From Geothrix sp. (GTDB taxonomy: Bacteria > Acidobacteriota > Holophagae > Holophagales > Holophagaceae), in the NCBI RefSeq assembly GCF_030219325.1, contig NZ_CP126625.1, positions 2,220,857 to 2,284,856 of the forward strand: a stretch of DNA of 64,000 nucleotides. The letters run 5' to 3'. Below the pieces are notes generated by a model, which saw only the letters and a program-made list of their open reading frames with translations, did no database searches and had not been told where the DNA came from. The position numbers were made by a program, and so were the translations under genes. Shown piece by piece: positions 19,075-23,006 of this stretch. How positions within the stretch are numbered: the first letter of the stretch is position 1; each line of letters opens with the position of its first letter.

Positions 19075-20487
19075 TCAGTCGAGCCTGGTGGTTCCCAGGA
19101 TGCCGTCGGCATCCAGGTGGCCCTTCAGCATCCCGCTGAGGGTCCGGATGACGGCGGGGGTGTAGGCCGCGTAGAACCGCTGGTTGTGGGGGCCCACGCC
19201 ATGCTCGGCGCTGTAGCTCCCCTCGAAGCCCTTCACGGCCAGATCGTAGATCCGGGCCTGCAGTTCGGGCACCAGATCAGCGGCAGGCCGGGGCGCAGCA
19301 GCCTCGTCCCACACCAGGTTCAGGTGGGTCCCCCCGTCGCCCCAGTGCCCGAAATCGCAGCAGCGAATGAAGGGATACGCTTCCGCCAGCACGGCACGGG
19401 CGGTCTGGGTAAAGGCGGCCATGCAGCTGCGCGGCACGCTGATGTCGAAGGCCAGGACCTTGCCTTCCTGGCGCAGGCTCTCGCTCACGTGGTGCCGGAT
19501 GGCCCAGAGATCCTCGGCGCGGCCCATGAAGACGTCCGTGATCCCATCTCCCGCTTCGGTCTCGAGGAAGGCACCCAGCCGCTCCTCCAGCAGGCCCGGC
19601 AGGTCCAGGGCGGCGGGCGGCAGGGTGGAGGCCAGCTCCACCAGGGCCGTGTAGGCCGGGGGCTGGGCGGCCCCGTAGGGATTCCTCACGCCGGCGTGGT
19701 GGACGAAGACCGGCGCCAGGGCCTCGGCGCTGATGACCTCGAAGGCCGTGAAGACATCGGCCAGGTCCTGCTCCAGCGCCCTCAGCAGGAGCAGCGCCGC
19801 CTCGCCGGAGGCGCAGCCCACCAGGGCCGTGGCCTGCTGGCCCGGCACTGGCACCACCTGCAGCACCGCTCCCGTGATGACGCCGAACACGCCGCTGGTG
19901 CCCACGAACAGCTGCTTCGCGTCCAGGCCCGTGTTGTTCTTCCGCAGCTGGTTCATGGCCTCGACCACGGTGCCGTCGGCCAGCACCACTTCGACCCCCA
20001 GCAGGTTGTGGCGCACGTCGCCATAGCGCAGCAGCCGCGTGCCGCCGGTGTTGGTGGCGATCATCCCGCCGATGGAGGGATCGGCGCCGAGGTCGATGGG
20101 GAACATCAGGCCATGGGCCAGGAGCGCTTCGTTCAGCGTGCTCAGCAGCACGCCGCCATCCACCCGGGCGGTGCGGTTGACGGGATCGATCTCCAGGCGC
20201 CGGTTCAGGCGCTCCAGGCTCAGGACGGCCATGCGGCCGCTGGCGTCCGGCGTGGAGGCGCCCACCAGGCCGGTGTTGGCACCCTGGGGGATGACCCGGA
20301 TCCCGGCCGCGTGGCAGGCCTTCAGGACCTCCGCCACCTGGGCGGTGGTGCCCGGCCGCACTGCGAGCAGGGCCTTCCCCTTGCCGTAGCGCCAGCCCTC
20401 CTCATAGCGGACCAGGTCCTCCGGCTCCGTCAGCACCGCGTCCGCGCCCAGCAGGTTCCGCAGGTCATGGATCAGGGCCTCGCTCAT
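19075..20487 (-). CDS. FAD-linked oxidase, GlcD/D-2-hydroxyacid dehydrogenase type
   Basis: 470 aa. The N-terminal FAD-binding 4 domain has VIPQGANTGLVGAS and DPSIGGMIATNTGGTRLLRYG. The C-terminal domain has CCDFGHWGDGGTHLNLVWD and SAEHGVG, the metal/substrate residues of the D-lactate, glycolate and D-2-hydroxyglutarate dehydrogenase family. It oxidises a D-2-hydroxyacid to the 2-oxoacid and passes electrons to an acceptor; the exact substrate cannot be read from sequence. The start overlaps the murD stop by ATGA. Confidence 0.85.
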   Translation of the reverse strand: MSEALIHDLRNLLGADAVLTEPEDLVRYEEGWRYGKGKALLAVRPGTTAQVAEVLKACHAAGIRVIPQGANTGLVGASTPDASGRMAVLSLERLNRRLEIDPVNRTARVDGGVLLSTLNEALLAHGLMFPIDLGADPSIGGMIATNTGGTRLLRYGDVRHNLLGVEVVLADGTVVEAMNQLRKNNTGLDAKQLFVGTSGVFGVITGAVLQVVPVPGQQATALVGCASGEAALLLLRALEQDLADVFTAFEVISAEALAPVFVHHAGVRNPYGAAQPPAYTALVELASTLPPAALDLPGLLEERLGAFLETEAGDGITDVFMGRAEDLWAIRHHVSESLRQEGKVLAFDISVPRSCMAAFTQTARAVLAEAYPFIRCCDFGHWGDGGTHLNLVWDEAAAPRPAADLVPELQARIYDLAVKGFEGSYSAEHGVGPHNQRFYAAYTPAVIRTLSGMLKGHLDADGILGTTRLD

Positions 20488-21812
20488 GACCGGCTCCAGG
20501 TCTGCACCAAGGCCTCGAAACGGTCCCCCCGCTGCTCGAAGTTGTCGAACTGGTCGAAGCTCGCACAGGCGGGACTGAGTAGTACCTGGTCGCCCGCCTG
20601 GGCCAGGGACAGCGCGGCGGCCACGGCCGCATCGAAGCCGGGGATCAGTTCGTGCGGCAGGTCGCCGAGGTCCCGCACGAGCTGGGGAATGGCCTCGCCC
20701 AGAAAGACCAGCCGCCGCAGCTTGCCCGCCAGGGCCTCGCGCAGCGGCTCGTAGCTGGCCCCCTTGTCGGTGCCCCCGAGCAGCAGGACCAGGGGCCCGG
20801 GGAGGGCGCGGATCGCCGTCAGCGTGGCATCCACGTTGGTGCCCTTGGAGTCGTTGTAGGCCTTCACGCCGCCCCGCTCGCCACAGAAGGCGATGCGGTG
20901 CGCGAGACCGGGATAGGTGCGCAGGCCCTCGCGGAGGGCGGCGATGGCGGCCCCGCCATGGGCGGCCAGGAGGCAGGCGGCCAGGGCGTTCTCCACGTTG
21001 TGCTCACCGGGGATCCGCAGCTCGGAGCGGTGCAGCAGGGGCTCGCCCAGCAGCGTCATGGCGCCGGAGGCGTCGCACCAGGCCTCGCACCCGGACCAGC
21101 CGAACCGCGCTGCTCGTCCGCTCCCCGGGGCATCCTGCCACCACTCCGGGTGGGCCGCGGGCACCACGCGCAGGTCCTCGGCCGTCTGGCCTTCGAAGAT
21201 CCGCAGCTTGGTGCGCCGGTAGGTCTCCATGTCGCCGTGCCGCGCCAGGTGGTCGGGCGTGAGGTTCAGGAAGGCCGCGCCTTCGGCGTGAAAGGCCAGC
21301 GTCGACTCGAGCTGGTAGCTGCTCAGCTCGATCACGAACACCGAACCCGGTTCCGCCGACTCGACGGCCTCGATCACGGGCGTGCCCAGGTTGCCGCAGG
21401 CGATGGCGGGAAGGCCCGAGGCCCGCAGCAGGTGGGCGGTGAGGTCGGTGGTGGTGCTCTTGCCGTTGGTGCCCGTCACCGCCAGCACCTTGCTGCCGTC
21501 CCCGCGTTCGCGGATCAGGCGGTGGGCCAGCTCCACCTCGCCGATCACCGCGATGCCGCGCCCCAGGGCCTCGGCCACGAAGGGCGCGGTGCGGGGGATG
21601 CCGGGGCTGATGACGAGCTCGCCGCAACCCTCCAGCAGGGCCAACGGATGGTCGCCCCAGACGCCGGGAATGCCCGCGTGCGCAAGGTCCAGTTCCAGCG
21701 CCGGGTCAGGCTCGGGGCGGCTGTCCGTCAGGACCACGGGGCGGCCCTGCACCGCGAGGAAGCGCGCCGCCGCCAGCCCTGACCGTCCTGCTCCCATGAC
21801 CACGGTGCGCAT
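20484..21812 (-). CDS. murD: UDP-N-acetylmuramoylalanine--D-glutamate ligase
   Basis: 442 aa Mur ligase adding D-Glu to UDP-MurNAc-L-Ala in the cytoplasm. An N-terminal Rossmann-like domain (GAGRSGLAAARFL) is followed by the ATP loop AVTGTNGKSTTTDLTAHLL near residue 115, the Mur central motif with HLARHGDMETY, and ligase-domain motifs NDSKGTNVDATLTAIRAL and LSPACASFDQFDNFEQRG. GGAGGGGGAGG lies upstream of the ATG. The gene is separated from mraY by an opposing EAL gene and an inverted-repeat element, so it needs its own promoter, and none of the usual downstream genes (ftsW, murG) follow. Confidence 0.95.
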   Translation of the reverse strand: MRTVVMGAGRSGLAAARFLAVQGRPVVLTDSRPEPDPALELDLAHAGIPGVWGDHPLALLEGCGELVISPGIPRTAPFVAEALGRGIAVIGEVELAHRLIRERGDGSKVLAVTGTNGKSTTTDLTAHLLRASGLPAIACGNLGTPVIEAVESAEPGSVFVIELSSYQLESTLAFHAEGAAFLNLTPDHLARHGDMETYRRTKLRIFEGQTAEDLRVVPAAHPEWWQDAPGSGRAARFGWSGCEAWCDASGAMTLLGEPLLHRSELRIPGEHNVENALAACLLAAHGGAAIAALREGLRTYPGLAHRIAFCGERGGVKAYNDSKGTNVDATLTAIRALPGPLVLLLGGTDKGASYEPLREALAGKLRRLVFLGEAIPQLVRDLGDLPHELIPGFDAAVAAALSLAQAGDQVLLSPACASFDQFDNFEQRGDRFEALVQTWSRS

Positions 21813-21830
21813 GCCGCCTCCCCCTCCAGA

Positions 21831-22137
21831 CTAGGAGCCTGTCCCAGTATTCGAAAGCCCCGCGATGGTCCCAGGCGGGATGCACCGCAAGGAAGGGCCC
21901 GCAGGGCGATGTGGTGGCATCGTTCAAGGGACCTGACGCCGCGGGGCGCCCGCCTGGGGCCATCCCGAAGGGCGTGCGGCGGCGCGCGTCGCGATGCGGC
22001 GTCAGGCTCGGATCGCGTAGTGCCCGCTACGCGATCCTCGCCTTCCTGGCCTCGCTCGCGCGGCGCCGCACGCGCGGGGCACTCCAATTACTGGGACAGG
22101 CTCCTAGGAGCCTGTCCCAGTATTCGAAAGCCCCGCG
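21831..22137. repeat. MITE-like inverted-repeat element with a second partial copy
   Basis: A unit of about 277 bp (21831-22107) is bounded by inverted ends beginning AGGAGCCTGTCCCAGTA. The right end carries the same 17 bp inverted, then GCCCCGCG after a short variable spacer at both ends. Immediately after it, 22104-22137 repeats the first 34 bp of the element in direct orientation, creating a perfect 34-bp palindrome at 22089-22122. Inside, 22010-22037 is an 11-bp stem with a 6-nt loop (arm GGATCGCGTAG). There is no transposase. The element fills the gap between murD and the EAL gene, so it must contain or adjoin the murD promoter. Confidence 0.7.
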
Positions 22138-22238
22138 TCGGACCCTGTCCGCACAATTGGAATGCCCGACCGGCCACGACAGCCCCGGCCGCCCGCGCTA
22201 CACTGAGGCCAGGACGCTGGGTCGGAGGCGAAGTGAAC

Positions 22239-23006
22239 ATGCCGAAGGGCATCCTGGAAAGCATGCTGAAGGGCGAAGGCGTCATCGAGCCCCACGTACA
22301 GCCCATGTACCGCCTCAACGACAACCGCCTCATGGCGCATGAATACCTCGCCCGGCATCTGGATGAGGCGGGCGTCGCCCATCCGGTGGGGCCCCTCCTG
22401 CAGGATCCCTCGCTGCGCCTGGAGGATCGCCTCGTCCTCGACCTGCGCTTCCTCGAGTCCACCTTCCAGACCCTGGCCCGCACCGGCGACGACAGCCACC
22501 TGCACTTCGTGAACCTGGAGCCCGTCAGCCTCGAAGCGCCGGGCTTCTGGGACTGCCTGCCGCGCTGGATGGAGGCCCTGCCCTTCGACCCCGGCTGCGT
22601 GGTGATGGAGTTCACTGAATCCCAGGGCGTGCACGACCTCCAGGTCCTGCAGGGCTACGCCAACCGGCTGCGCGACCTCGGCCTGCGGGTGGCGGTGGAC
22701 GACCTGGGTGCGGGCGTTGCCAGCCTCACGCACATGGCGCGGCTGGCCCCGGACTTCATCAAGGCGGATCGCAGCCTGGTGGAGCAGGTCCATCGCCGCC
22801 CCTACCAGGCAGCCCTGCTGAATGCGCTCTCCCACTTCGCCCAGCGCATGCGCATCGGGTTCATCGCCGAGGGCATCGAGACGCTGGAGGAGTTGCAGGC
22901 CGTCATGGATGCGGACGTGCCCTGGGGGCAGGGCTACATCCTGGGCCAGCCCTGGCCCACGCGGCCCCGGCCGATCATCGCCCCTAGCGCAGCTTCAGGG
23001 AGCTGA
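22239..23006 (+). CDS. Stand-alone EAL-domain protein (c-di-GMP phosphodiesterase)
   Basis: 255 aa consisting of one EAL domain. Residues for Mg2+ and c-di-GMP are mostly kept: EYL in place of EAL (MAHEYLARH), FVNLEP, VMEFTES, VAVDDLGAG, FIKADRSLV, FIAEGIETLEEL and GQGYILGQPWP. It should hydrolyse c-di-GMP to pGpG in the cytoplasm, although the loop variants mean activity is unproven. GTG 22233, 4 nt after GGAGG, is an equally possible start. The gene faces the mur cluster, and its 3' end overlaps the mraY stop by 23 bp convergently. Confidence 0.82.
   Translation: MPKGILESMLKGEGVIEPHVQPMYRLNDNRLMAHEYLARHLDEAGVAHPVGPLLQDPSLRLEDRLVLDLRFLESTFQTLARTGDDSHLHFVNLEPVSLEAPGFWDCLPRWMEALPFDPGCVVMEFTESQGVHDLQVLQGYANRLRDLGLRVAVDDLGAGVASLTHMARLAPDFIKADRSLVEQVHRRPYQAALLNALSHFAQRMRIGFIAEGIETLEELQAVMDADVPWGQGYILGQPWPTRPRPIIAPSAASGS

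Follow-up and report, generated by a model that had tools for sequence, protein, structure and literature searches.

ERIC, Correia and BOX are intergenic foldback repeats with size variants, and the Geothrix repeat reported here can be likened to them by description, not by sequence; to our knowledge, matched variable ends are not known for any of these families. The ERIC and Correia repeats are treated in PMC10969869, and the defining features of type II prokaryotic MITEs that we used for comparison are those set out in parts of the same paper. By these features the Geothrix repeat is like a type II MITE in that it is shorter than 500 bp, has no recognised coding capacity, carries terminal inverted repeats, makes a target duplication and is present in many copies, and in that it shares nothing but its ends with an autonomous IS. 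It is unlike the type II MITEs described in those parts in that its ends vary between copies yet match within each copy, in that its interior is found inverted at orthologous sites and takes up optional modules at fixed places, and in that it is predicted to fold into a Y and not into a single hairpin. Neither the word "compensatory" nor the name IS1182 occurs in the available portion of the main text of PMC10969869.

A second line of comparison is with template switching. Parts of PMC8604942 describe how template switching between the arms of an inverted repeat homogenises the arms and inverts the spacer, and parts of PMC8794818 how it can maintain stems. Arm homogenisation and spacer inversion are seen in the Geothrix repeat as well; the cases reported in these parts of the two papers are short-spaced repeats of yeast genes and RNA genes, whereas here the repeat is mobile and its spacer is about 240 bp long. 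Our search of the literature on Geothrix repeats, and on covariation or template switching in MITEs, returned no report that we recognised, within a coverage from which subscription papers are mostly absent. As a MITE, the repeat is of a known kind, and it is the matched, changing ends and the in-place inversions that are new.

Stem covariation is normally taken for strong evidence of a functional RNA. In the Geothrix family, a large natural one, the terminal stem of a transposon-like element covaries although G·U bias is slight or absent, and it does so at fixed sites where in-place inversions are seen as well. The family also lets one follow how MITE ends evolve in about 34 related genomes. 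It would offer a good bacterial test bed for how far template switching of DNA can by itself imitate RNA covariation, and it calls for caution in RNA-discovery pipelines. Taking the explanation as a whole, we consider it likely that the repeat is a type II MITE, that it was moved by an IS1182-type transposase, and that its ends are matched by template switching.

The window element and its family

Between murD and a divergent EAL-domain gene, the window (the whole stretch of 64,000 nucleotides of Geothrix sp. DNA that was analysed) holds an element between two copies of CTAG, followed by a second left end and then by an older degenerate end (Table 1). The earlier note, made from the letters of the window, had described inverted ends around an enclosed segment, a perfect 34-bp palindrome formed with a second left end, and an internal 11-bp stem, and each of these is present. 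Read directly, the arms at 21831-21849 and 22089-22107 are 19 bp long and 100% complementary; among 200 dinucleotide shuffles of the region 21600-22400 no inverted-repeat arm exceeded 14 (mean of the longest 9.6) and no palindrome half exceeded 9, against 17 observed. The 17 bp AGGAGCCTGTCCCAGTA stand at 21833, 22089 (minus strand) and 22106, with no further site in the window at three mismatches or fewer (0.21 expected), and the 11-bp stem, with GGATCGCGTAG at 22010-22020 and CTACGCGATCC at 22027-22037, is part of a longer arm. No Pfam match was obtained for two of the ORFs that cross the element. That note had nothing of what is described below on ends that match while they change, on the Y fold or on inversion in place.

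Table 1. Features at the window element and its neighbouring genes, in window positions
Feature	Position	Strand	Evidence or remark
murD; 18 bp between its start codon and the left CTAG	20484..21812	-	TIGR01087, 381.3 bits (cut-off 212)
CTAG, left target-site copy	21831..21834	.	CTAG flanks the element on either side, as it does the IS1182 element
MITE-type element, 269 bp between the two CTAG copies	21835..22103	+	Two further full copies in the genome at 91 and 94% identity; ends as in an IS1182-family IS
Left terminal inverted repeat GAGCCTGTCCCAGTA	21835..21849	+	Ends common to IS1182-family IS
P2, left arm of the predicted Y-shaped fold, with the conserved AAGGAAGG / CCTGACGCC internal-loop motif	21864..21964	+	
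P3, right arm of the predicted Y, with a similar loop motif on the minus strand; includes the 11-bp stem	21972..22073	+	
Right terminal inverted repeat	22089..22103	-	Ends common to IS1182-family IS
CTAG, right target-site copy	22104..22107	.	CTAG on both sides
Second, truncated left end, 34 bp identical including CTAG	22104..22137	+	Palindrome 22089-22122 with the right end; CCCAG variant as in the window copy
Older degenerate right end of a family member (GGACCCTGTCCGCACAATTGGAATGCC)	22140..22166	-	Common to the nearest relative, G013
EAL-domain gene, divergent from murD	22239..23006	+	PF00563, 134.2 bits (cut-off 31.3)

The reading of this element as a member of a multicopy MITE-type family is borne out in the window genome (3.73 Mb, one contig), where two further full copies (identity 94 and 91%) have the same ends and nine copies with the same core, at 82-83% identity, have other ends, chiefly GAGTGCCTAACAAAA. 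There are 12 strong matches in all, the query included, and four weaker partial ones (L014, L015, L017, L021). The ends, whose uniqueness in the genome the earlier note had named as the observation that would speak against a family, are present in three copies. With the core as query, matches were obtained in 34 of the 37 same-genus genomes (the window genome included), a few of which, such as G022 and G030, had weak matches only, and in none of the 23 others among the 60 genomes searched. The core pattern was found in at least 120 stretches of a collection of named genomes, the titles among the matches listed being Geothrix, Holophagaceae or "Acidobacteria bacterium", and the plasmid records searched held no match to the repeat. 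The fetched loci yielded 152 distinct full copies, together with 56 that are partial or lie at an edge. On sequence grounds, the element beside murD is one copy of a gene-less mobile repeat found across the genus Geothrix, and it is a type II MITE, non-coding and with only its ends in common with an autonomous IS.

Inserts lengthen 19 of the 152 full copies, mostly at fixed places and in several combinations; a module of 42 bp lies at position 56, one of 78 bp near position 91, and one of about 100 bp in P3. Hairpin modules of these three sizes were noted in L012, L121, L153, L160, L170, L186, L188 and others, and several of the hairpins resemble, by eye, C-GNA-G triloops. Three deviant copies (L187:6827, L151:4616 and L086:448-651) combine a recognisable core with very different long ends (GGGCTCGTTAAACAATAA, GCTGGAACGGAATAA) and are possible partners of other IS. 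Simple ORF calling, in which ORFs may run into the element and from which distances were therefore left aside, gave a gene context for 134 of the 152 copies: 69 lie between tandem genes, 38 between divergent and 18 between convergent ones, and 9 are unclear.

Target sites, element-free sites and transposases

The ends fall into a GAGCC group, to which the window subfamily belongs, and a larger remainder. Outside the GAGCC group, identical 3-bp flanks were found in 35 of 126 copies, where 500 shuffles gave 15.0 on average and 23 at most, and identical 4-bp flanks in none of the 126; the 15 of the 152 copies that lack a parsable end were kept out of this count. The column consensus at these ends is C-TWA/GAG...CTC/TWA-G, with slashes at the element boundaries. 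As read from the flanks, the larger subfamily duplicates 3 bp, TWA, of a CTWAG-like target. One IS5 subgroup is characterised by a 3-bp TNA duplication. The GAGCC group has 11 copies, one of which, L195, has ends of another type and lacks CTAG; 6 of the 11 are flanked by CTAG on either side, and here the 4-bp identity (6 copies, against a shuffled mean of 5.1) does not rise above the shuffles because the target is fixed.

The earlier note had proposed looking for empty sites, and such sites were found in the nearest relative, G013, which is 90% identical at murD. Ten of the window genome's own copies, the window copy not among them, were queried there: for seven the flanks are contiguous without the element, one was ambiguous, and two had no usable match. 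Exact CTNAG is seen at only two of the seven element-free sites (L004 and L006), the other junctions having drifted. We infer gain in the window genome, with loss in G013 as a possible alternative, and most of the other-ended members probably moved after the split from this relative. At L006 and L004 the element apparently sits right where the upstream gene ends with its stop codon, and the next start follows just after it; the CTNAG target can contain a stop codon.

We searched for transposases with the profiles PF01609 and PF05598 in 41 genomes and PF13340 in 47, and looked for ends within the fetched loci. Among the transposase loci of the genus is an intact IS of 1545 bp with ends CCTAGGAGCCTGTCCAAGTAA, at L223 in the sister genome G034. 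Its protein, of 438 aa, is of the IS1182 family (NF033551, 382.8 bits against a cut-off of 270) and has the domains PF05598, PF01609 and PF13751. This element answers to the transposase with matching ends that the earlier note had suggested seeking: it is like the window subfamily in its ends, GAGCCTGTCCAAGTA(A) (15-16 bp), and in its CTAG flanks, and unlike the window copy in carrying the 438-aa transposase. Beyond the ends and CTAG, the core of the window MITE has no similarity to this IS above chance. IS-only ends were found in 2 of the 47 genomes, G034 and G066, and the match in G066 extends over 1352 of the 1545 bp at 91%. Since the ends and CTAG of the window subfamily equal those of an IS1182-family element, the window copy was most likely moved in trans by a transposase of this family in the genus. 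The window genome has no PF05598 match, its single PF01609 match is an IS4-family transposase, and no IS1182-type transposase was found in it.

For the other end types, an IS5-type IS in G020 has ends similar to those of copy L132. No IS with the commonest ends, GAGTGCCTAAC, was found in the 47 genus genomes, where four lone matches were left once continuation into the MITE had been excluded, and a scan of viral contigs gave a raw count of 16 matches to the GAGTGCCTAAC end. The transposases found explain the window subfamily and perhaps L132, not the other end types. A REP-type family, which the earlier note had offered beside a MITE, was rejected together with its REP/RAYT mobiliser: the Y1 transposase (PF01797) is present in 5 of the 47 genomes and missing in 42, the window genome among the latter. 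One of the genomes, G068, has five Y1 transposase matches with identical scores (L294, L298, L300, L302 and L304), with no evident link to the repeat.

Pairing of the ends and changes at fixed sites

Computed with RNA energies, the family consensus folds into a predicted Y made of a terminal stem, P1, and two arms, P2 and P3. The window element as single-stranded DNA gives the same predicted Y at -115.9 kcal/mol, against -71.4 for shuffles (z -12). The loop motif AGGAA.../...TGACG occurs in P2 when the plus strand is read and in P3 when the minus strand is read, so that the element is roughly dyad-symmetric. The predicted Y would bring the two ends of each copy together.

Stem statistics were taken over 64 representatives from 129 copies clustered at 92%, the 23 of the 152 copies that lie outside 262-285 bp or have a weak stem being kept out. 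P1 is Watson-Crick in 92.2% of cells, against 66.4% (maximum 69.9%) when the right arms are dealt to other copies; the same control gives 79.8% for both arms, where 88.7% (P2) and 87.8% (P3) are observed. Two or more Watson-Crick types are common in 22 of the 28 P1 pairs, and the sequence of P1 is less conserved than the core loops, its outer GAG being conserved. The numbers of G·T and A·C pairs in P1 are 76 and 91 in 98 copies, and 75 and 75 in 90 copies. In the representatives, G·T/A·C is 68/41 over all 28 pairs of P1 and 44/38 in its mostly Watson-Crick pairs, 211/16 and 32/16 respectively for P2, and 101/58 and 36/54 for P3, the last of which leans to A·C. At the apex of P2, on the plus strand, alignment columns 74-92 and 75-91 form two nearly invariant G·T pairs, found in 84 and 88 of 90 copies; they are unexpected if only duplex DNA matters, and we offer no explanation for them.

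Covariation of this kind could reflect selection on a transcript, the repeat being a structured RNA, regulatory or terminator-like, that has spread in the genus. The very stable predicted fold, the pairing above the dealt-arm control in all three helices, the conserved plus-strand G·T pairs in the P2 apex and the excess of G·T over A·C when all pairs are counted in P1, P2 and P3 fit such an RNA, which we nevertheless hold to be very improbable. Much of the lean over all pairs is due to a few positions where G·T is the usual state, and it shrinks or reverses in the mostly Watson-Crick pairs; in P1 the two kinds of mismatch are equal in 90 copies. We think it unlikely that this stem is maintained as RNA from one strand, for its little or no G·U excess argues against selection at the RNA level, although its all-pair G·T count leans the other way. 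Rfam gave no match at the gathering score in seven loci and, in window positions 21000-23000, only four sub-threshold ones; no terminator-like site was found; and only 18 of 134 gene contexts, by the rough ORF call, are convergent.

Flank comparison gave 22 orthologous pairs in 14 groups, of which 11 were kept under a same-junction criterion of at least 13 of 20 bases on each side with shifts of up to 3; L182/L155, L102/L363, L348/L086 and, in another group, L137 were dropped because the junctions are not the same. At the 11 sites, 177 of 220 stem positions are unchanged, 17 have changed in both arms with pairing kept, 23 have changed in one arm, and 3 are equally unpaired. About 0.2 paired changes would be expected if the arms changed independently. 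For this count the arm registers were set by hand with a 5-base anchor, and L347/L359, which has 4 paired positions in the register used, has 10 with an automatic register. In 3 of the 11 groups (L321/L328, L315/L144 and L200/L153) the interior is inverted relative to the flanks, the end lineage being alike; L182/L155 was ruled out as a fourth inversion, its junctions differing. Often the two cores of an orthologous pair resemble copies at other places more than they resemble one another, so that cores are either exchanged between copies or stay near the consensus while the ends diverge.

Arm homogenisation and spacer inversion are thus both present, which is the signature published for template switching, and we infer template switching as the cause. 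Each copy, when single-stranded, would fold into the large Y and bring its ends together; a polymerase would then switch from one arm to the other during replication. Such a switch would copy a change in one arm onto the other arm, homogenising the two, and would sometimes invert the interior in place. The spacer of about 240 bp exceeds the 70-bp limit of the yeast study, a gap that the predicted fold alone would close. Similar traces would also be expected if the two arms recombined homologously, or if a DNA cruciform were under selection.

Integron attC sites are recognised by their folded shape rather than by their sequence. If the ends of the Geothrix repeat were recognised in this way, with a protein or the replication machinery reading the shape of the folded DNA or cruciform, the stem sequence would be free while selection removed mismatches, and one system could move many end types. 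This would suit a P1 that is less conserved than the core loops, near-equal G·T and A·C in P1 as from selection on DNA of both strands, loop motifs that are conserved and common to the two arms, and the lack of an IS with the commonest ends in the 47 genus genomes. We regard recognition by the folded Y as improbable all the same: the conserved outer GAG, the TWA duplication and the IS1182 match point to ordinary ends read by sequence, no candidate protein appeared among the profiles searched (PF01609, PF05598, PF13340 and PF01797), and in-place inversion is not predicted by it.

The variety of ends might also have arisen by capture, different IS each having lent their ends to the same core, in which case the matching of the two ends would merely reflect fresh insertion. 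The IS1182 partner of the window type and the IS5-type terminal repeat near the ends of L132 are what one would look for in that case, and capture may explain the deepest differences between end types. As an account of the matching itself it seems to us unlikely. One recognisable end lineage, GATCTCATATC, has five paired changes in L126/L373/L386/L163, and paired changes at fixed sites within one lineage are not given by fresh insertion; nor was an IS for the commonest ends found in the 47 genus genomes. Template switching remains our preferred reading of the matched ends, and it probably extends to the extra left end in the window.

The second left end and the site upstream of murD

Over its 34 bp the second left end repeats the first without a difference, and over 42 bp the identity is 93%; it runs into the older degenerate end (Table 1). 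Both arms of the window copy read CCCAG at a place where CCAAG or CCGAG is found in other copies, so that this copy itself bears one of the traces expected of template switching, and in the fetched loci this variant occurs in none of the 12 other left ends and none of the 11 other right ends of the window type; the TTCGAAAGC of the second left end is common to one other copy, L120. Because the extra left end carries the window copy's own CCCAG, a local duplication is likelier than a separate insertion: the element probably had its own end copied beside it, as a local template switch would produce. The earlier note had instead read it as one insertion landing on or beside another. A separate, truncated insertion at the same CTAG would give the layout seen, and several relatives have older ends at the same site; the CCCAG variant, absent from the 12 other left ends of the type in the fetched loci, and a TTCGAAAGC shared with one other copy, L120, make this reading doubtful, and we rate it as rather unlikely.

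The same note had taken the element to provide the upstream region of murD. As to position it does, given the distance of the murD start from the left CTAG (Table 1); as to function, a scan for promoters and terminators at the window element found no promoter-like and no terminator-like site.

In G013, the window site holds a remnant, CTAGGAGCCTGTCCGCATGATTGGAATGGCC, and is not a clean empty site. Several other relatives have recognisable decayed ends there, as judged by eye, and the murD intergenes at this site are short in G002, G033, G065 and G068. The decayed ends suggest that the place upstream of murD is an old site or one that has been hit repeatedly. Decayed family ends upstream of murD were noted in several species at L264, L268, L274, L278, L279 and L283.
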